DNA of 64,000 bases from Sporomusaceae bacterium (GTDB taxonomy: Bacteria > Bacillota > Negativicutes > Acidaminococcales > JAJUGR01): NCBI GenBank assembly GCA_029265905.1, contig JAJUGR010000006.1, positions 1 to 64,000 on the forward strand, in the 5' to 3' direction. The position numbers were made by a program, and so were the translations under genes. The notes under the pieces were generated by a model. It had not been told where the DNA came from, searched no databases, and was given only the letters and a program-made list of their open reading frames with translations. Below, piece after piece: positions 43,536 to 55,681 of the stretch. Each line of letters begins with the position of its first letter. The first letter of the stretch is position 1.

Positions 43536-46058
43536 TCAGCGGATTTCCTCCATCGTGAAGGCTTCCAGCACGTCGCCCGGTTTGAAATCGCGGAATTTTT
43601 CAAGCATGATCCCGCATTCGTAACCGGTTGCCACTTCTTTGACGTCATCTTTAAAGCGCCGCAACGAGTCTATCTCGCCTTCGTGAATGACGATACCGTC
43701 GCGAATGACGCGCATCTGCGACGACCGCGTGATTTTGCCTTCCAGCACATAGCAGCCGGCAATCACGGTCTTGGAAATGGTAATCAACTGGCGCACTTCC
43801 GCCTTGCCTTGAATGACTTCTTTATATTTCGGGGCCAGCATGCCCTTCATGGCCGCTTCCATATCCTCAATCGCCTCATAAATGACGCGGTAGAGGCGGA
43901 TGTCAACCTTCTCCTGATCGGCCGCTTTTCTGGCGTTGTTGTCGGGCCGCACGTTGTAGCCAATGATAATCGCATTGGATGCGGAAGCCAGCATGACGTC
44001 GGACTCGTTGATGGCGCCCACGCCCGCATGAACAACAACAACCCGCACTTCTTCGTTTCTGATGTTTTGCAGCGATTGGCGCAGAGCCTCAACCGTACCC
44101 TGCACGTCGGCCTTGACGACGATATTGAGCTCCTTTAGCTTGCCCTCTTGGATCTGGCGGAAAATATCGTCAAGCGACACTTTTTGCGCCAACTGGAGCT
44201 CGTCCGTCCGTTTCTTGGCAATCCGTTTCTCCGCGACAGAACGGGCTGTTTTTTCATCGGTTACATACAAAATATCGCCGGCCTGGGGAACATCAGCCAA
44301 GCCCAGGACTTCGACCGGCGTGGAGGGCAGGGCTTTTTTGACTTTTTCCCCGCGTTCATTGATCATGGCCCGTACCTTGCCATAGGCGACGCCGGCAATA
44401 ATCGTGTCGCCTATGTGCAGCGTGCCCTTTTGCACAAGCACAGTGGCAACCGGTCCGCGGCCCTTGTCAAGCTGCGCTTCGATAATCGCGCCTTGCGCCG
44501 CACGGTTGGGATTGGCTTTCAGCTCCTGCATTTCCGAGACGAGCAAAATCATCTCCAATAGCGAAGTGATGCCGATTTTTTGCCGCGCGGAAACCGGAAC
44601 CATGATGGTGTCGCCGCCCCAGTCCTCCGCAATCAGCCCATACTCGGACAGCTGCTGCTTGATTCTGTCGGGATTGGCGTCCGGCTTGTCGATCTTGTTG
44701 ATCGCCACAATAATCGGCACGCCTGCCGACTTGGCATGGTTGATCGCCTCAATCGTCTGCGGCATGACGCCGTCGTCCGCAGCGACCACCAAAATGGCCA
44801 CGTCCGTAACCAGGGCGCCGCGGGCGCGCATCGAAGTGAAGGCGGCGTGTCCGGGCGTATCCAAGAAGGTGATTTTCTTGCCCTGGTAGTTGACCTGGTA
44901 GGCGCCGATATGCTGCGTGATGCCGCCCGCTTCGCGCGCGGTAACGTTCGTTTTGCGGATGACATCCAAGAGGGACGTTTTGCCATGGTCGACGTGGCCC
45001 ATGACCACGACAACCGGCGGACGCGGCTGCAGGGTTTCCGGTTCGTCGACGATTTCCGGCACTTCCGTCGGGTCCTGTTCCGGCGGCAGCGCTTCTACCG
45101 CCACCTGGTATTCGCCCGCCACGATGACAGCCGTATCAAAGTCTACCTCTTGGTTTATGGTAACCATGACGCCCAGCATCAGCAGCTTTTTCATGACATC
45201 GCCCACTTCGCGATGCATTTTTTCTGCCAATTCTTTGACCGTTATCGATTCGCCAATGACGATTTTGGTCGGTTTTGGCACTTCAACGCGTGGCGCGGCC
45301 GGCGATTTTCCGCCGCGATGCGTGCCGCCGCGATGCGTGCCGCCGCGTGCGCCGCCAAAAGCAGCGCCGCCGCGACGCTCGCTCTTTTTGTCCCCTTTGT
45401 CCCCTTTGTCCCCTTTGTCCCGGTCCTTGTCGCGGAACTGTTCGCTGCGGCCCTTTGCAGGAGCGGCGGGACGCGAAACAGGTGCAACCGGGGCAACCGG
45501 CGCGGCCGCCGGACGCGGTCCCTGCGGCCTGTCAAATCCGCCTTGCGGGCGCGGTCCTTGCGCTCTGTCGAACCCGCCTTGCGGGCGAGCGCCCGTTGGG
45601 CGCTGCCCCTGGAACTCACCGGCGCCCTGCGGCCGGCCGCCTTGCGGGCGATTGAAACCGCCTTGCGGACGCGGTCCTTGTCCTGCCTGTGCCGGGCGCT
45701 GCTGCCCGCCTCGAGGAGCGGCGCCCCCCTGCGGCGGGCGTTGTTGGGGACGATCCTGACCCGCTTGTGCAGCCTGCGGCCGGAAAGGCGGGCGGTCCTG
45801 CGGTTGGGCAGGCCGGGCTTGCTGCTGCCCGGCGGCCGGTACCGGCCGGCTCGGCTGGGCCGGTGCGGCGGCAGGCTGTTTGGGCGCCGCCTGAGGTGCT
45901 TTTTTGGCAAAGGCTTTTATAATAATCGCCTTTTCTTCGTCATCAACAACGCTCATATGATTGCGTGCCGGACGATTATTACGTTCGAGCAAATCCAAAA
46001 TAACCTTGCTCGTTGTTTCGAACTCTTTTGCTAATTCAAAGATTCTATACTTGGACAT
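43536..46058 (-). CDS. infB: Translation initiation factor IF-2
   Basis: An 840-residue GTPase that places fMet-tRNA on the 30S subunit. An N-terminal IF2N domain (about 1-55) is followed by a 200-residue Pro/Gln/Arg/Gly-rich linker with repeated RPQGGF-type units and GDKGDKGDK, then a second IF2N domain (about 265-320). The G domain shows [13 protein letters not shown] and NKIDKP, and domains II-IV follow. It is downstream of nusA-ylxR-ylxQ, as in Bacillus. The linker is encoded by repetitive DNA, so its length could vary between strains. Confidence 0.99.
45391..45417. repeat. Tandem 9-bp repeat in the infB linker
   Basis: Three exact copies of TCCCCTTTG on the plus strand (a fourth is partial) encode GDKGDKGDK in IF-2. 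Just beside it, around 45317-45346, a 15-bp unit encoding GGTHR is present twice. Such repeats can expand or contract by slippage without a frameshift. Confidence 0.85.
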
Positions 46059-46410: not shown

Positions 46411-46672
46411 CTTCCAGCACGTCCACAAGCAAAGTCTCATAAATTTCCGGGCTTACCGCTTGCTCCAGCGCCCGGTCGAAGCGCTTTTCCTTATAGGCTT
46501 TCCGCACGCAGGAACGCTTGGCGCACACATAAACGCCCCGTCCGGCCTTCTTGCCGGTCGTATCAAGGACAATTTCCCCCTCCGGCGTTCTCACAACGCG
46601 GATGAGTTCCTTTTTGGGGAACATCTGCTGGCATCCGACACACATCCGTTGCGGGATTTTTCTTACCTTCAC
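46403..46672 (-). CDS. ylxR: YlxR/RnpM family RNA-binding protein
   Basis: An 89-residue DUF448 protein; B. subtilis YlxR (RnpM) binds the RNase P RNA and modulates its activity. The protein has the family core KIPQRMCVGCQQMFPKKELIRVVR and GRGVYVCAKRSCVRKA, including two paired cysteines (CVGC, and C...C in the second). The start is GTG 46672, overlapping the nusA stop by 4 bases (GTGA). Translational coupling to nusA is expected. Confidence 0.95.
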   Translation of the reverse strand: MKVRKIPQRMCVGCQQMFPKKELIRVVRTPEGEIVLDTTGKKAGRGVYVCAKRSCVRKAYKEKRFDRALEQAVSPEIYETLLVDVLEDE

Positions 46673-47727
46673 AGCAGTTCATCCTCCTGCAGTTCGCTTG
46701 CCTGCGACTCGCTCTTGATGTCAATTTTCCAGCCGGTCAGCTTCGCCGCCAGACGGGCGTTTTGCCCTTCCTTGCCAATGGCAAGCGACAGTTGGTAATC
46801 CGGCACAATGACGCGGCAAATTTTTTCCGCTTCGTTTGCCTCCACGCTCACGACCTTCGCCGGGCTCAGCGCATTGGCGACATAAACGGCAGGATCGGTG
46901 CTGTACTTCACGATGTCGATTTTCTCGCCGCGCAGCTCATTGACAATCGTCTGCACGCGCATGCCCTTATGTCCGACGCAGGCGCCGACCGGATCGACAT
47001 TTTCGTCCTTCGTGTACACCGCAATCTTCGAGCGCAAGCCAGACTCGCGGGCAACCGCCTTGATTTCCACCACGCCGTCATGGATTTCCGGCACTTCCAA
47101 CTCAAACAAGCGCTTGAGCAAGCCCGGATGGGTGCGGGACACCATGATCTGCGGCCCCTTCGTCGTCTTCTTGACTTCAATGATGTACGTCTTGATGCGG
47201 TCCAGGTGGTGATAGATCTCGCCCGGAATTTGCTCGCTCGGCGTCAAAATGGCCTCCGCCCGTCCCAAGTCGATAAACACGTTCTTTTGCTCGACCCGTT
47301 GCACGATGCCGGTCACGATGTCGCTCTCGCGATTGGAAAATTTCTCGTAAACCATGCCGCGCTCCGCTTCGCGAATGCGCTGCACGACGACCTGTTTAGC
47401 AGTCTGCGCGGCAATGCGGCCGAAATTCCGCGGCGTCACTTCAATTTCGACAATGTCGCCGACGACATAGCGGGGATCAAGCAGGAGCGCTTCCTGCAGC
47501 GTGATTTCCAGGTTGGCGTCCTCGATGTTGTCCACCACCAGTTTGCGTCCGAACACATGGATGTCGCCGGTTTGGCGGTCAAGGCTGACACGGACATTCT
47601 GCGCCGAGCCAAAATTGCGCTTATAGGCGGAGATGAGCGCCGCCTCCACCGCTTCAAATAAGATGTCAGGCACAATGCCCTTTTCCTTGCCTATTTCCTG
47701 CACTGCTTGCATGAACTCTGCATTCAC
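46669..47727 (-). CDS. nusA: Transcription elongation/termination factor NusA
   Basis: A 352-residue NusA. It has an N-terminal polymerase-binding domain (about 1-125), an S1 domain (VTGIVQRVEQKNVFIDLGRAEAILTPSEQIPGE) and two KH domains (VGACVGHKGMRVQTIVNEL and LAIGKEGQNARLAAKLTGW). It lacks the C-terminal acidic repeats of proteobacterial NusA, the normal Firmicutes form. The start is GTG 47727 with AGGAGGAAC upstream. It is the second gene of the rimP-nusA-ylxR-ylxQ-infB-rbfA operon. Confidence 0.99.
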   Translation of the reverse strand: MNAEFMQAVQEIGKEKGIVPDILFEAVEAALISAYKRNFGSAQNVRVSLDRQTGDIHVFGRKLVVDNIEDANLEITLQEALLLDPRYVVGDIVEIEVTPRNFGRIAAQTAKQVVVQRIREAERGMVYEKFSNRESDIVTGIVQRVEQKNVFIDLGRAEAILTPSEQIPGEIYHHLDRIKTYIIEVKKTTKGPQIMVSRTHPGLLKRLFELEVPEIHDGVVEIKAVARESGLRSKIAVYTKDENVDPVGACVGHKGMRVQTIVNELRGEKIDIVKYSTDPAVYVANALSPAKVVSVEANEAEKICRVIVPDYQLSLAIGKEGQNARLAAKLTGWKIDIKSESQASELQEDELL

Positions 47728-47767: not shown

Positions 47768-48226
47768 TTAAAATTCCAGATGCAGACGAACCAAAGCGAC
47801 ATCCTGCCGGTCCACAACAACCGATTCGTCCCCGACCAGCAGCGTGATTGTTTCCGGCGAGTGATCGGCCAGGACGCCGACCAGCTGCTTTTTGCCATTT
47901 TGGGGTGCAAAAAAAGTGACCTCCACTTTGCTGCCCTTATGACGAATAAAATCCTTCTCCTTTTTGAGCGGCCGGTCAAGCCCTGGCGAAGATACCTCCA
48001 GGTAATAGCTCTCGCGGATCGGATCTTTGGCATCAAGCAAAGTCTCCAGTTTTTCACTTACCATCTGGCAGTCATCAATCTCTATGCCGCCCGCTTTATC
48101 AAGATAGACACGAAGATACCAGTCTCTTTCCCTGACAAACTCCACATCCACCAGTTCCAGATTTGTCCCCTGCAGGATCTCCAGCGTCCAATCCGTTACG
48201 ATCTTTTCAATGTCTTCTCTTGCCAT
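47768..48226 (-). CDS. rimP: Ribosome maturation factor RimP
   Basis: A 152-residue factor needed to assemble the 30S subunit. The family signature is VDVEFVRERDWYLRVYLDKAGGIEIDDC and LEVSSPGLDRPLK. ATG 48226 follows GGGAGGTG; the ORF-track start at 48247 adds residues that span that site. It is the first gene of the operon with nusA and infB and lies behind its own promoter and a leader hairpin. Confidence 0.97.
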   Translation of the reverse strand: MAREDIEKIVTDWTLEILQGTNLELVDVEFVRERDWYLRVYLDKAGGIEIDDCQMVSEKLETLLDAKDPIRESYYLEVSSPGLDRPLKKEKDFIRHKGSKVEVTFFAPQNGKKQLVGVLADHSPETITLLVGDESVVVDRQDVALVRLHLEF

Positions 48227-48265
48227 CCATTTCACCTCCCTGATCATTAAAGCCCCTGAGTAAAC

Positions 48266-48372: not shown

Positions 48373-51300
48373 TTAGCCAAATAACGCCAGTTGGTCGCTC
48401 TCGGGCAGGCCCGCCAAGCAGCCGTGCCCGCGCAGCAGTTCGACAATCGTTTTTGAGACGTGCGAACGGTTCCGCAGATCGTCGATTGACAAAAACTCCC
48501 GCTGGGCGCGCGCCTCGGCGATGTTCTTCGCAGCGTTGTCCCCCACGCCCTGCAGGGCGGACAAAGGCGGCAGGAGGCCGTCTTCTCGCACCTGAAAGCG
48601 GATGGGGTCCGATTTGTACAGGTCGATCGGATAAAGGCAAAAACCGCGCAGGTACATTTCCAGCGCCACTTCCAGGATCGTTTGCAGGCTCTTTTCCTTG
48701 ACGCTCGCCTTGTTGCCAAGCTGTTCGAGCTCGCGCAGGCGGTTTTTAATGGCGTCCTTGCCTTGAACAATTAAATCAGCATCGAAATCATCAGCCCGGA
48801 TGCTGAAGTAAGCGGCGTAAAAAGCCAGCGGATGATGCACTTTGCAGTAGGCGATGCGGTAGGCCATCAGCACGTATGCCACCGCATGCGCCTTGGGGAA
48901 CATGTATTTGATCTTTTGGCACGACTCGATATACCACTCCGGGACGTTTTTTGCCCGCATGGCCGCGCACTGGTCGGGGTTGACGCCCTTGCCTTTACGC
49001 ACGGACTCCATGATCTTGAATGCCAGTCCCGGTTCCAGACCCTTTTGAATCAAATAGACCATGATGTCGTCGCGGGCGGAAATCGTCTCTGAAACCTTGG
49101 CCGTACCGCTGCGGATCAAGTCCTGCGCATTGTTGAGCCATACGTCCGTGCCGTGGGAAAAGCCGCTGACGCGGACCAATTCGCTAAAGCCGGTCGGCTT
49201 GATGTCCTCAAGCATCTGGCGGACGAACTTGGTGCCGAACTCCGGTATGCCGTACGTGCCAACCGAGGAGCCGAGTTCCTTGGGCGACACGCCCAGCGCG
49301 TCGGTCGAGGAAAACAGCGACATCGTCGCCTGGTCGGCGATCGGTATGGTGCGCGGCGGAATGCGCGTGATGTCTTCCAGCATTTTGATCACGGTCGGAT
49401 CGTCATGCCCCAGAATATCAAGCTTGACCAAGCGGCTGCTGATCGAATGGTAGTCAAAATGGGTGGTGACGGTTGTGGCGTTTTTGTCGTCCGCCGGATA
49501 CTGAATCGGGGTGAAAAAATGCACGTCCATGTTGCGCGGCACGACCATGATGCCGCCCGGGTGCTGGCCGGTCGTCCGCTTGACGCCCGTGCAGCCGGGA
49601 ACAAGGCCGTTGATGCGCGCCTGGCGGCACTTGATGCCTTTGCCTTCAAAATACTTGCTGACGAAGCCGAAGGCGGTTTTATCGGCGATCGTCGCAATTG
49701 TGCCGGCGCGAAAGACGTTGTCGCGGCCGAACAGCTCCTCGGTATATTTATGCGCCACAGGCTGGTACTCGCCCGAGAAATTCAGATCGATATCCGGCAC
49801 CTTGTCGCCATGAAAGCCGAGGAAGACAGCAAACGGAATGTCGTGTCCGTCCCGCACCATCGGCTTATGGCAGCGCGGGCAGTCCTTGTCCGGCAGATCA
49901 AAGCCGGAGCCGGCGCTGCCGTCTAGGACAAATTCGCTGTGGCGGCAGGTTTCGCAGCGCCAGTGCGGCGGCAGCGGGTTGACCTCGGTGATATCCGTCA
50001 TCGTCGCAACAAACGACGAGCCGACGGACCCCCGCGACCCGACCAGATAGCCGTCATCGAGGGACTTTTTCACCAGCTTATGGGCAATAAGATACAAAAC
50101 GGCAAAGCCGTTGTTGATGATCGAATTCAGTTCCATCGTCAGCCGGTCCTGGACAAGCTGCGGCAGCTCGTCGCCGTACAGGCGCCGGGCATTTTCGTAA
50201 GCCATGTTGTAAATGTCGTCTTCCGCGCCTGGGATTTCCGGGGAATACAATTCGTCGGGAATCGGCTTAAACGTTTCCATGGCATCAGCAAGTTTGCGAG
50301 TGTTCTCGACAACCACTTCATAGGCCTTCCTTTCGCCCAGGTAAGAAAAAGCGGCCAGCATTTCTTCGGTGGTACGGAAAAAAACCGGCGGCTGCAGATC
50401 GGCGTCGCTGTAGCCCTGCCCCCCCATCAAGACGCGCCGGTAAACCTCGTCGCGCTCGTCCAAAAAGTGCACGTCGCAGGTGGCGACGACTGGCAAGGAC
50501 AGCTCTTCGCCCAAAGCGCAGATCCGGCGATTCAGGTCTTCCAGCGCCTTTTCGCCGGCCACTTTGCCTTGCCGGATCAAAAAGGCGTTGTTGCCCGTCG
50601 GCTGGATTTCCAAATAATCGTAGAAGCGGGCGATTTGCCGGACCTTCTCCTCCGGCTCCCCCTCCAACAGCGCTTGGTAAAGTTCGCCGGCCTCGCAGGC
50701 CGATCCGAGGACCAGCCCTTCACGGTACTGCTCCAGCAAAAAGCGCGGTATCCGCGGCTTGCGGTGGAAATACTGCAAATGCGACAGCGAGACCAGCCGG
50801 TACATGTTATGCAGGCCCACCAGGTTCTTGGCCAAAATCACAATGTGCCAGTACTCATTGATGTTGTCGTCAAAAAGATAGCCTTCCAAGCCGTAAATGA
50901 GCTTGATGCCGCATTTTTCCGCCGTCTCATAGGCTTCGGGGAAAGCCTGCACAACACCGTGGTCGGTGATGGCCACGGCCGGATGCCCCCATTTGGCGGC
51001 CCGCTTGATGAAATCCTTGATCGGCACCACCGAGTCCATCGAGCTCATGCGCGTGTGCGCATGCAGTTCGACCCGCTTCACGTCTGCCGAATCCTGACGG
51101 ACTTCCTTTTCCGTCAGCATGAGCGCCTCGACAAACAAAATCAGCTCATAGTCGTTGAACTTGTCGTGCTTTACGTCGCCGCTGACTTGCGCCATTTGGC
51201 CATTTGCCAATTTTTTCAGCACGCGTTCAGCTTCGTCCGCCTCCTCAAAAAAGACTTTGCAGCTGATGCCGTCCGTATCGTCGGCAATTTCAAACGTGAC

Positions 51301-52062
51301 CAAGGTTTTGCCGCTTTTGAGCACCCGGCTCTCCAGGTTAAAGATCGCGCCCTGCACGGTGACCTTATTTTCTTCCTCCTGAATCTCCATCAGCGGGCGC
51401 GGCTCGCCGCGCAAACGCTTGCCGAACAGCAACGGATTTTTGCTTTTCGTCGACTCTTGCGCCGTTTCCGCCGCTACGGCCAGCTGCGCCGCCCGGTAGG
51501 CCTCCGTTTGCCATTGCTCCTCCTCCGCCTCGCAATTGAGTTCGGCGGCTGGGGCGCTGGTCAGCAAGACGCGCCACGGCTGCCCGCTCATGGCTTCCAT
51601 CAAGGCGGAAAGCCGCTCGTCAAGCCCCTGCTCGAGCAAGTAATCGCGCACCATATCGCCCGGCATTTCCAGCGTCAGCCGCTGGTCATCCCACTGCCAC
51701 AGGGCCTGGGCCAAAAACCGAACCGAGGCTGGCTCCTGTCCCTCCAAAGCCGCCATGACCACTTGCTTGTCCAACGGCTTGGCAATTCTTCGCACCAGCG
51801 TAAGCTGGGGCTGTTGCAGCAAAAAGGAAACCTTGTCGAGCCCGCACTGCTGGCATAAAGCCTCCGCTACCGGCTGCAGCGCCGCTTCACTGATGGGCAA
51901 AGCCGTTTTTAAATAAATCCGCCATTGCGGCGGCTCCTCTTGTATCTCAACTTTTTCAATTGCGCTTTTACGCAACGCCTGTTGAACGGCAGCGGGCAAC
52001 GACAAGCCGGACAAAAAAGACCAAAACGCAGCCGAGTCGTCCGGTATCAAGCAGTAATTCAT
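48373..52062 (-). CDS. polC: DNA polymerase III PolC-type alpha subunit lacking the inserted exonuclease domain
   Basis: A 1229-residue PolC replicase, about 200 shorter than B. subtilis PolC. An N-terminal region (1-220) and an OB domain (about 232-310) precede the PHP domain, which has HAH (334-336), D343, H368 in ITDHG, E393, H406, C456 and DVH (530-532), all nine expected metal ligands. The DnaQ-like exonuclease that normally interrupts PHP between the GLEA and YHATLLA segments is absent: GLEGYLFDD runs directly into EYWHIVILAKN. The polymerase core has VPDIDLNFSGEY (D757, D759) and a zinc site CETC...CPRC. AGGAGGGG precedes the ATG. Confidence 0.98.
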   Translation of the reverse strand: MNYCLIPDDSAAFWSFLSGLSLPAAVQQALRKSAIEKVEIQEEPPQWRIYLKTALPISEAALQPVAEALCQQCGLDKVSFLLQQPQLTLVRRIAKPLDKQVVMAALEGQEPASVRFLAQALWQWDDQRLTLEMPGDMVRDYLLEQGLDERLSALMEAMSGQPWRVLLTSAPAAELNCEAEEEQWQTEAYRAAQLAVAAETAQESTKSKNPLLFGKRLRGEPRPLMEIQEEENKVTVQGAIFNLESRVLKSGKTLVTFEIADDTDGISCKVFFEEADEAERVLKKLANGQMAQVSGDVKHDKFNDYELILFVEALMLTEKEVRQDSADVKRVELHAHTRMSSMDSVVPIKDFIKRAAKWGHPAVAITDHGVVQAFPEAYETAEKCGIKLIYGLEGYLFDDNINEYWHIVILAKNLVGLHNMYRLVSLSHLQYFHRKPRIPRFLLEQYREGLVLGSACEAGELYQALLEGEPEEKVRQIARFYDYLEIQPTGNNAFLIRQGKVAGEKALEDLNRRICALGEELSLPVVATCDVHFLDERDEVYRRVLMGGQGYSDADLQPPVFFRTTEEMLAAFSYLGERKAYEVVVENTRKLADAMETFKPIPDELYSPEIPGAEDDIYNMAYENARRLYGDELPQLVQDRLTMELNSIINNGFAVLYLIAHKLVKKSLDDGYLVGSRGSVGSSFVATMTDITEVNPLPPHWRCETCRHSEFVLDGSAGSGFDLPDKDCPRCHKPMVRDGHDIPFAVFLGFHGDKVPDIDLNFSGEYQPVAHKYTEELFGRDNVFRAGTIATIADKTAFGFVSKYFEGKGIKCRQARINGLVPGCTGVKRTTGQHPGGIMVVPRNMDVHFFTPIQYPADDKNATTVTTHFDYHSISSRLVKLDILGHDDPTVIKMLEDITRIPPRTIPIADQATMSLFSSTDALGVSPKELGSSVGTYGIPEFGTKFVRQMLEDIKPTGFSELVRVSGFSHGTDVWLNNAQDLIRSGTAKVSETISARDDIMVYLIQKGLEPGLAFKIMESVRKGKGVNPDQCAAMRAKNVPEWYIESCQKIKYMFPKAHAVAYVLMAYRIAYCKVHHPLAFYAAYFSIRADDFDADLIVQGKDAIKNRLRELEQLGNKASVKEKSLQTILEVALEMYLRGFCLYPIDLYKSDPIRFQVREDGLLPPLSALQGVGDNAAKNIAEARAQREFLSIDDLRNRSHVSKTIVELLRGHGCLAGLPESDQLALFG

Positions 52063-52084: not shown

Positions 52085-52756
52085 TTAATCGCGCAACGCA
52101 GGGTTTTCTACGCCAATGACGCCGTCCTGCTCGCTCAAATCAAGCAGCACCCTGCGCAACGGCTCGCGCCTGTCCATAATCAAAAACAGGTCGAGCGTCA
52201 GAATCCCCGCACCGGCGTGGTGCGTAAAATTCAAGGTTTTGACTCTTATGCTGCGCTCTTCAAAAAAACGCAGTATGCGGGACATGCTGCCCGGCGCATC
52301 CTTGAGGCTGACCCGCACCTGGTGCTTGGCCACGCGAAAAAAATGCTTCTCTAGCTTTGCAAACATCGATAAAGTCACAACCATGATCAGCGTGGCAAAT
52401 GCCGCCGTGGCGTACATCCCCGTCCCCACCGCCAGACCGACGGCCGCCACCATCCACAGGCTGGCAGCTGTCGTCAGCCCCTTGACCGTCAGGCCTTCAT
52501 GCAAAATGGTGCCCGCCCCCAAAAAGCCGATGCCGCTGACAACCTGGGCGGCCAGGCGCGCCGGATCCTTCGGTTCTGAAAAGCCGGCAAAGCCGTACAT
52601 CGAGACCACCATGACGAGCGCCGAACCGGTGCAAACAAGAATATGCGTGCGGAAGCCAGCCGGACGATCCCAGTTTTCCCGTTCCATGCCGATTAACCCG
52701 CCCAATACGCAGGCGACAATCAGACGCAGGGCAATTTCATAGTCAAGTCCGGTCAT
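52085..52756 (-). CDS. MgtC/SapB family membrane protein
   Basis: A 223-residue protein of the MgtC/SapB family. Four to five hydrophobic helices in the first 135 residues carry the family motif LGGLIGMERENWDRPAGFRTHILVCTGSALV (abridged) and GIGFLGAGTIL; a C-terminal ACT-like domain (about 145-223) has VSLKDAPGSMSRILRFFEERSI. AAGGGGGGC precedes ATG 52756, and the ORF-track extension (53002) overlaps proS. Roles proposed for the family include Mg2+ homeostasis and regulation of membrane ATPase; none can be assigned here. It stands between proS and polC, an unusual insertion. Confidence 0.92.
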   Translation of the reverse strand: MTGLDYEIALRLIVACVLGGLIGMERENWDRPAGFRTHILVCTGSALVMVVSMYGFAGFSEPKDPARLAAQVVSGIGFLGAGTILHEGLTVKGLTTAASLWMVAAVGLAVGTGMYATAAFATLIMVVTLSMFAKLEKHFFRVAKHQVRVSLKDAPGSMSRILRFFEERSIRVKTLNFTHHAGAGILTLDLFLIMDRREPLRRVLLDLSEQDGVIGVENPALRD

Positions 52757-52790
52757 GGCCAGCCCCCCTTTTTCGAAAACACTCATTGTC

Positions 52791-52799
52791 ATTATAACA
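52791..52799 (-). promoter_or_regulatory. Possible extended -10 promoter for the mgtC-like gene
   Basis: The minus strand reads TGTTATAAT about 35 bases before the gene. The -35 region is weak. It follows the proS terminator, so a new transcript start here is plausible. Confidence 0.45.
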
Positions 52800-52815
52800 C
52801 ATGGTGGAAACGCAG

Positions 52816-52847
52816 AAAAAGAATGAGACGAATCCCGCGGATTCGTC
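52816..52847 (-). terminator. Intrinsic terminator after proS
   Basis: On the minus strand GACGAATCC, a GCG loop and GGATTCGTC are followed by TCATTCTTTTT. It lies 15 bases after the proS stop codon. Confidence 0.75.
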
Positions 52848-52862
52848 CCACATAAACAAGCT

Positions 52863-54581
52863 TTACTCCGCCTTGGGCTGGTCAACGGCCGCCAACAGGC
52901 GTTCGACCTCCGGCAGATAGCCTTCCAGCGGCAAGAACACAGTCTCGCCCGTGCGGCGGAGCCGCACCTCCAGTTGCCCCTGCTCGGCCGTTTTCGGCCC
53001 AATCGTGATGCGAAGCGGATAGCCGATCAAATCGGCATCCTTGAATTTAACGCCGGCCCGCTCGGGACGGTCGTCCAAGAGCGCGTCCACGCCGCATTTT
53101 TTCAAGCTGGCATATACTGACTCGGCCAGCGCCATCTGCCCAGCATCTTTGGCGTTGACAGGCACGACGACTACCGAATACGGCGCAATCGCGACTGGCC
53201 AAATGATGCCGTCGGCGTCATTGTTTTGCTCGATAGCCGCAGCCATCGTCCGGCTCACGCCCACGCCGTAGCAGCCCATGACCAACGGTTTTTCCTTGCC
53301 GTTTTCGTCCAGGAAAGTCGCATTGAGCGCCTGGCTGTATTTGGTGAAGAGCTTGAACACCTGCCCCACTTCGATGCCGCGCGCTTTCTTGACCGGCGCG
53401 CCGCAATGGGGGCAGGGGTCGCCCTGCTGGATCAAGCGAAGGTCAGCCACCTTGTCCGGCGTGAAGTCACGCAGCGGTTCGACATGCAGCAGGTGGCGGT
53501 CGGGGGCATTGGCGCCCGCTACCGCGTCATGCATCGCCATCACCGACAAGTCGGCGATAACCGTGGCGTTTTTCAGTCCAACCGGTCCAATGAAGCCCGG
53601 CACGCCGCCGCACGCGGCAATATCAGCCTCGCCGGCCAGCTCAAGCGCAATCGCGCCGCACTCGTTCAGCACCTTGATTTCATTGACCTCGTGGTCGCCA
53701 CGGACCAAGGCCACCACAACGCCCTTCTCGCTGGTATAGGCGACCGCTTTAATCGTCTGCTCCGCCTTGACCTGCAGGAAATCGGCCACTTCCTGGATCG
53801 TTTTGCAGCCTGGCGTGTCAACCGACACCGCCGCCGGCCCGGCAGGCAGATCGGATTGGATCACATGCAGATCCGCTTTTTCCACATTGGCCGCATAGTC
53901 GCACGCGCTGCAGTAGACGATTTCGGCTTCGCCCGCTTCGGCGATAACCATGAATTCATGGGAGCCGCTGCCGCCGATCGCGCCGGAATCAGCCTCCACC
54001 GGCCGGAAGCGCAAGCCGCAGCGGTTGAAAATATTGGTGTACGCGTCATACATGGCGCGGTAGGAAGCGTCAAGCGCTTCTTCGTCGCGGTCAAAGGAAT
54101 ACAAGTCCTTCATGATGAATTCGCGGCCGCGCATCAGCCCAAAGCGGGGCCGGCGCTCATCGCGGTATTTGTTTTGGATTTGATACAGGCGGACCGGCAG
54201 TTGCTTGTAGGAGCGGATTTCCGAGCGCACCAGCGTCGTGATCATCTCCTCATGCGTCGGACCAAGGCAAAACGGGCGGTCGTGGCGATCCTTGACCCGG
54301 AACATCTCATCGCCGTATACGTCCCAGCGGCCGCTTTCCTGCCAGATTTCCGCCGGCTGCATAATCGGCATCAACAGTTCCTGGCCGCCTTTGGCGTCCA
54401 TTTCTTCCCGGACAATCGCTTCTATTTTTTTCAACACGCGCCAGGCAAGCGGCAAATAGGTGTACAGGCCGCCGGCAGCCTTGCGTATCATGCCCGCTCT
54501 TAGCATGAGCTGATGGCTGATAACTTCCGCTTCAGCCGGTACTTCCCGCAGTGTCGGTGCATATAATTGAGAAACACGCAT
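52863..54581 (-). CDS. proS: Prolyl-tRNA synthetase (bacterial, with editing domain)
   Basis: A 572-residue class II synthetase of the bacterial type. Motif 1 lies around [18 protein letters not shown], motif 2 is [20 protein letters not shown] and motif 3 is [17 protein letters not shown]. The INS (YbaK-like) editing insertion spans about 235-385 ([31 protein letters not shown]) and clears mis-charged Ala-tRNA(Pro). A C-terminal anticodon-binding domain follows. ATG 54581 overlaps the ispG stop (TGATG); the ORF track starts one codon earlier at TTG. Confidence 0.98.
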
Positions 54582-55681
54582 CAATTCGTCGTCCTTTCTT
54601 TTATCAACTGATCAATTTCCTGAAACAGCGCCTCGACGAGTTCGGCTTCCGGCAATTTGCGGATGATTTCCCCTTTGCGGAACAGCAACCCTTCCCCGCA
54701 GCCGCCGGCGATGCCGACATCGGCCTCGCGCGCTTCGCCCGGGCCGTTGACAACGCACCCCATGACAGCCACAGAAATAGGCTCGGTGACCGCCGCCAGC
54801 CGCTGCTCCACCTTCGTCGCCAACCCGACCAAGTCAAGGCTGGTTCTGCCGCAGGTTGGGCAAGAAATAAGCGTCGGCCCGTATTGCTTGAGTCCGAGCG
54901 CCTTCAATATTTCATTCGCCACAATGACCTCTTCAACCGGATCCCCGGTCAAAGAAACGCGGACCGTATCGCCGATCCCCTGCGCCAGCAGCGCGCCGAT
55001 GCCAACGGCCGATTTGATCGTGCCGCTTTTCGGGGTGCCGGCTTCGGTGATGCCCAAATGCAGCGGATAGTCGCAGGCTGCCGCCATCGCTTGATAACTG
55101 GCGATCGTAAGCGGCACGTCATGCGCTTTCAGCGAGACCTTGATCGCGGAAAAATCGCACTCCTCCAGGAGCCTGATATGCCGTTTGGCCGCTTCCACCA
55201 TGGCCTCCGGGGTGGGGCTGCCGTACTTCTCCAGCAAGTCCCGCGGCAGCGAGCCGGCGTTAACGCCGATGCGGATCGGGATATTGCGCCGCAAGGCGCT
55301 GGCTGCCACCTCTTTAACCCGCTGCTGGTCCGTCAGGTTGCCAGGATTGAGGCGCAGTCCGGCCACCCCGGCGTCAACAGCCGCCAAAGCCAGCCGGTAA
55401 TCAAAATGGATATCGGCCACTACCGGCAGGACGCTTTTTTCAACAATCGCCGGCAAAGCTTGCGCCGCCGGCTGGTCAGGCACGGCAACCCGGATGATAT
55501 CGCAGCCCGCAGCGGCCAGGCGGGCAATTTGCGCAAGCGTAGCCGGCACGTCATGCGTCTTCGTGTTGGTCATCGATTGAACGCTGACCGGGGCTTTTCC
55601 GCCGACGAGCACATTTCCCAGCTGCACCGGCCGCGACGGTCTGCGCGCGAACATCGTTGATTCAGCCTTCTCTCTTACCAT
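54581..55681 (-). CDS. ispG: 4-hydroxy-3-methylbut-2-enyl diphosphate synthase (IspG)
   Basis: A 366-residue [4Fe-4S] enzyme, the penultimate step of the MEP isoprenoid pathway. The cluster cysteines are in LISCPTCGR and [11 protein letters not shown], and the barrel domain has [12 protein letters not shown] and ADIHFDY. It overlaps the end of rseP by 7 bases. The start is ATG 55681; MFARR at 55654 is an alternative. It lies between rseP and proS, with dxr of the same pathway two genes upstream. Confidence 0.97.

Follow-up and report, generated by a model that had tools for sequence, protein, structure and literature searches.

Exonuclease-less PolC in a Negativicutes bacterium: probable recurrent loss of an inserted domain and PHP metal sites as candidate proofreaders

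Introduction

Canonical PolC proteins, represented in structure by those of G. kaustophilus (3F2B) and E. faecium (9QPC), carry a DEDDh exonuclease between strands 3 and 4 of the PHP domain. In the G. kaustophilus protein the insert is flanked by E405 and H620 of the published ligand table (PMC3666897), and the exonuclease domain was removed from the construct that gave the 3F2B crystal structure. Both solved PolCs have Asn at one of the nine PHP ligand positions (D530 in the numbering used below), and in G. kaustophilus this Asn accompanies an absent PHP exonuclease (PMC3666897).

Proofreading by the PHP domain itself is known from the DnaE1 polymerases of M. tuberculosis and T. aquaticus, which have a complete nine-ligand PHP site, no fused DEDDh domain and a measured exonuclease. 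Exchange of a single metal aspartate in M. tuberculosis DnaE1 (D23N or D226N) abolishes the activity, and a long loop guides single-stranded DNA to the metal site (PMC5636811). The corresponding nine-ligand exonuclease motif has been written as HHDHEH[C/H]DH (PMC12926913). An E. coli PHP domain with restored ligands gained no exonuclease (PMC3666897); a complete ligand set, although required, is thus not enough for activity.

PolCs lacking the inserted exonuclease, here called exo-less, have also been described. Timinskas et al. reported in 2014 that the Exo insertion is missing from 6% of PolCs, nearly all of them from Clostridia and Negativicutes, and from 16% of the PolC+DnaE1 systems in their table, and that the nine PHP positions of PolC show strong conservation; PolCs without the insertion are still classed as PolC, and according to the same survey the division of labour and proofreading in PolC+DnaE1 replisomes had not been experimentally worked out (PMC3919608). 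For Sporomusa ovata PolC1, the authors of a 2015 study recorded a full set of PHP ligands and proposed that the domain might proofread, while reporting just a passenger or candidate mutator mutation and no biochemistry (PMC4632017). This protein is a Negativicutes exo-less PolC, and its residue E587 (PMC4632017) matches the exo-less PolC of our locus L052. Here we compare these systems with the polC locus in a 64,000-nucleotide stretch of a Sporomusaceae genome, referred to as the window.

The polC locus and its empty insertion site

The gene occupies positions 48373..52062 on the minus strand, an open reading frame of 1229 aa that starts with ATG and has AGGAGG upstream. Its product scores far above the NCBIfam cut-offs for PRK00448 (1573.8 bits, cut-off 873) and TIGR01405 (1429.8 bits, cut-off 1043.45), and Pfam places its domains in the order OB (residues 234-308), PHP (332-481), Pol3 alpha, finger and HHH_6. 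As in other PolC proteins, the OB domain (51139..51363, minus; PF01336) lies N-terminal to PHP. Motif inspection found the zinc-binding cysteines, palm aspartates and clamp motif all intact: the catalytic aspartates lie in VPDIDLNF at 755 and KLDILGHDD at 880 (49414..49800, minus; PF07733/PF17657), and the beta-clamp binding motif QLALF forms residues 1224-1228 at the C terminus (48379..48393, minus).

The surroundings are equally conventional. Pfam assignments give the order rseP-ispG-proS-(mgtC)-polC-rimP-nusA-infB, canonical apart from the mgtC-like gene. The usual upstream neighbour proS (52863..54584) and downstream neighbour rimP (47768..48247) are both on the minus strand, followed after rimP by nusA (46669-47727) and infB (43536-46058), with the MgtC-family gene (52085-53002, minus) between proS and polC. 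Given this neighbourhood and the intact motifs, the gene is, as judged from its sequence, the orthologous polC of a Negativicutes bacterium and not a paralogue.

The difference from canonical PolC lies within the PHP domain (PF02811, residues 332-481). Its N-terminal part (residues 330-393; 50884..51075, minus) contributes the ligands H334, H336, D343, H368 and E393, and its C-terminal part (residues 406-545; 50428..50847, minus) contributes H406, C456, D530 and H532. Between E393 and H406 lie just 12 residues, GYLFDDNINEYW (394-405; 50848..50883, minus), where canonical PolC has a DEDDh exonuclease of about 210-213 aa; in E. faecium PolC (9qpc) the flanks of the site are ~207 residues apart. 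An AlphaFold model of the OB and PHP domains (396 residues, mean pLDDT 88.5), whose best structure matches are the PolC entries 3f2b (top) and 9qpc, predicts a strand-turn-strand hairpin with a short turn between two strands at this point. Pfam detects no RNase_T domain anywhere in the chain, and the Pfam and NCBIfam domain scans rule out an exonuclease shifted to another part of it.

An earlier note, made from the letters alone, had described a 1229-residue PolC whose PHP domain reads straight through with 12 residues between Glu393 and His406, with no DEDD exonuclease elsewhere in the polypeptide and all nine PHP ligands kept. The open reading frame, the alignment and the Pfam search bear this description out, each ligand is found at the position given, and the interval named correctly covers the PHP segment of polC.

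The window PolC therefore lacks the DEDDh insert in PHP, a feature that is typical but not universal in the family, and has the other features of PolC. With the canonical proteins it shares the family, the OB-PHP-Pol order and the catalytic motifs, and it differs from them both in the missing exonuclease and in having Asp rather than Asn at position 530. Compared with the exo-less PolC described from Clostridia and Negativicutes (PMC3919608), we found no difference: NTD, OB, uninterrupted PHP, Pol3 and HhH2 are present without an Exo insertion, the PHP ligands are conserved, and the genome combines this PolC core with a DnaE1. The window PolC is thus a further member of that group.

Distribution of exo-less PolC

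The earlier note had implied that such a protein is rare, which does not hold: Negativicutes PolCs are as a rule exo-less, the form is also common among other lineages of the Clostridia type, and a published account dates from 2014 (PMC3919608). All 90 Negativicutes PolCs that we read are exo-less, with 5-33 residues at the insertion site. A PolC match was found in 145 of the 151 class genomes, none of them with a PolC frame longer than 1350 aa, which is too short for the insert. Relatives named in a contig scan (80 in all) come mostly from Sporomusa, Pelosinus, Selenomonas, Anaerovibrio and Mitsuokella, and include Desulfosporosinus, Peptococcaceae and Syntrophomonas.

PolC frame lengths in 300 genomes sampled across the phylum are bimodal, at about 1200-1290 or 1400-1490 aa, and among 199 PolCs taken from loci (one that was incomplete at the site being set aside) the insert measures either 5-33 or 211-217 aa with one exception of 84 aa; every insert of 211-217 aa contains the DxE and HHRxxxD motifs. 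The exception, the exo-less PolC of L162 (G230), has an 84-residue low-complexity segment rich in Ala, Pro, Asp and Glu and no recognisable decayed DEDDh domain.

The published figures of 2014 therefore understate the spread found here, which covers all Negativicutes and many other families. Exo-less PolC is a class-wide and already published property, not a peculiarity of the window genome.

Some Negativicutes encode second or third PolC-like frames (G101:C9:4745-7144, G101:C10:166648-168939, G109:C16:26551-29031, G115:C1:2336480-2338696 and G142:C1:1991394-1993034). Four of the five are short (about 620-900 aa) with 38-54% identity to the window core, and the G109 frame has 1307 aa and 63% identity; they are possibly mobile-element or accessory copies.

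Loss or gain of the exonuclease domain

We built a tree from 71 PolC cores, leaving out the insert columns. Its well-supported branches require a minimum of 6 changes in exonuclease state and parsimony counts 8, and the Negativicutes of the window fall within an entirely exo-less set of 12 rows. The number of changes alone does not discriminate between gain and loss. Among the exo-containing PolCs the insertion site is always the same and insert identity follows core identity (Mantel r=0.67, 0/1000 permutations), indicating that the domain was inherited together with the core and that losses are likelier than gains. The simplest account of these sequences would be that the domain was acquired once, early on, and then lost repeatedly.

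The PHP metal site as candidate proofreader

If the inserted exonuclease was lost, how are these replisomes proofread? We consider it rather probable, judging from the conservation described below, that the proofreading of this replicative, orthologous PolC falls to PHP sites in the protein itself and/or in DnaE1. In the proposed course of events, a Negativicutes lineage would have lost the DEDDh domain from the PHP loop, which closed to a short hairpin, and the trinuclear PHP metal site would carry out 3'-5' proofreading, in PolC and/or in trans from DnaE1, as modelled on the T. aquaticus and M. tuberculosis enzymes. Such proofreading would make the DEDDh insert redundant, so that it could be lost without replacement.

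The ligands HHDHEHCDH are intact in all 151 full-length exo-less PolCs, compared with 43 of 45 exo-containing ones (Fisher p=0.052, phylogenetically uncorrected), and in both exceptions, as in the two solved PolCs, Asn takes the place of D530. The window PolC has Asp there and carries the full nine-ligand motif HHDHEH[C/H]DH. In its complete site and the lack of a fused DEDDh domain it resembles the DnaE1 proteins of M. tuberculosis and T. aquaticus; these are of the DnaE type, with a longer loop by the active site and a measured exonuclease, whereas the window PolC is known from sequence. Between the conserved E and H its loop has 12 residues, short like that of E. coli and unlike the 29-residue loop of M. 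tuberculosis DnaE1, although a long loop is not strictly defining, as its length varies among active PHP enzymes.

Several PolCs from the order of the window (L006-L008, L010, L012 and L013) have a lysine-rich loop of 25-33 aa where the insert is missing (GYLISDSGIEGTDIEPTDSIKKKKGTKTQLD is one such loop), nearly as long as the loop that guides DNA in M. tuberculosis DnaE1. The DNA-path residues K136/W137 of that enzyme were dropped as a marker, W137 not being conserved in T. aquaticus.

At 65-70% Pol identity, PHP identity is slightly higher in exo-less than in exo-containing pairs (0.600 vs 0.582), the pairs being non-independent; a PHP domain clearly more constrained in exo-less PolC is unsupported by so small an effect. 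The domain could also be retained for stability or structure, since exo-containing clostridial PolCs keep the ligands as well.

DnaE1 as a second replicase

The earlier note had held that the replicase must be proofread by a separate exonuclease, by PHP itself or hardly at all. This overlooks that the genome encodes an entire DnaE1 as well (L113:5212-8625), whose nine PHP ligands are intact, as they are in all 20 class genomes checked. With a second replicase present, PolC alone does not fix which polymerase makes the bulk of the DNA. This lends some weight to an alternative in which PolC is minor or specialised and hardly proofread, while DnaE1 replicates the bulk genome and corrects by its own PHP site; Timinskas et al. 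raised DnaE1 as a possible main replicase in PolC+DnaE1 systems (PMC3919608). We regard a subordinate PolC as unlikely, since clamp motif, catalytic residues, zinc-binding cysteines and canonical locus are all preserved and PolC turned up in all but 6 of the 151 class genomes. One Negativicutes genome encodes, besides its main DnaE1, a second DnaE-like polymerase with 39% identity in a frame of 1176 aa (G116:C1:1316530-1318656).

Stand-alone exonucleases

A further alternative places proofreading in trans on a separate DEDDh exonuclease, which in the window genome would be a stand-alone protein of 192 aa (G000:C14:106959-107534; L001:1471-2049, minus). All five catalytic residues are present (D36/E38, AHNAAFD, HHDAASD), the protein matches the PolC exonuclease both in NCBIfam (PRK00448 residues 426-583, E=2e-22) and in the T. 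maritima PolC exonuclease structure 2p1j, its closest families are PolC-exo and DinG-exo, and relatives occur in 79 of 101 class genomes. KapD is also encoded in this genome. Against such proofreading in trans, the gene adjoins GGDEF and amino-acid ABC transporter genes, away from replication genes, and inspection of the protein sequence found neither a clamp-like motif nor a C-terminal extension. Moreover, five near-complete Negativicutes genomes with exo-less PolC (G003, G009, G042, G062 and the single-contig G086) gave neither a 192-aa-type exonuclease nor an RNase_T match and were negative in both searches. Single-genome absences are nevertheless provisional, since searching for RNase_T can overlook a true copy, as in G061, which was negative there although the relative search found its copy.

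Genomes outside the class point in the same direction. RNase_T lies inside the PolC frame in 45/45 exo-containing genomes, which served as positive control for sensitivity, and in 0/41 exo-less ones, and a stand-alone version of the PolC-exo type occurs in just 3 of these 41. Fourteen of the 41, two of them single-contig, have no RNase_T match at all, and stand-alone RNase_T proteins (180-400 aa, hand-counted) are no more frequent in exo-less than in exo-containing genomes (about 20/41 vs 22/45, Fisher p=1). As far as these sequences tell, domain loss is not systematically compensated by a stand-alone enzyme. A single dedicated DnaQ as general replacement is likewise unsupported, being absent from many exo-less genomes and showing no enrichment. 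The search for a stand-alone exonuclease, which the earlier note had suggested, thus succeeded in the window genome, where the enzyme has an intact DEDDh set, and yielded no general answer, with many exo-less genomes lacking one. Proofreading in trans by such an enzyme seems to us quite improbable.

Finally, a deletion introduced by sequencing or assembly, which the earlier note had named as grounds for withdrawing its reading, is excluded for practical purposes by the same gap in the relatives: an identical arrangement of open frame and short loop recurs at 151 independent PolC loci, single-contig genomes included.

Implications for fidelity in PolC+DnaE1 replisomes

The PHP sites of PolC and/or DnaE1 are always present and a stand-alone enzyme is not, which makes PHP the leading candidate proofreader. 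Of the three options in the earlier note, PHP proofreading is the best-supported one and would be the candidate function of the intact site. What is new relative to the 2014 literature is that the loss probably recurred, that no systematic compensation accompanies it and that the PHP ligands are intact throughout the exo-less PolCs. Repeated loss and missing compensation sharpen a testable claim, namely that PHP sites proofread these replisomes, and the large natural exo-less group allows PHP proofreading in PolC to be tested without first removing an inserted exonuclease. There is also relevance to PolC inhibitors, as the PolC of these bacteria has one domain fewer.

More broadly, and tentatively, the PolC+DnaE1 replisomes of Negativicutes and several other Bacillota lineages may have repeatedly dropped DEDDh proofreading with no replacement, leaving fidelity to the PHP sites of PolC and DnaE1. 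If this is true, PHP proofreading would be ancestral and sufficient in these bacteria.
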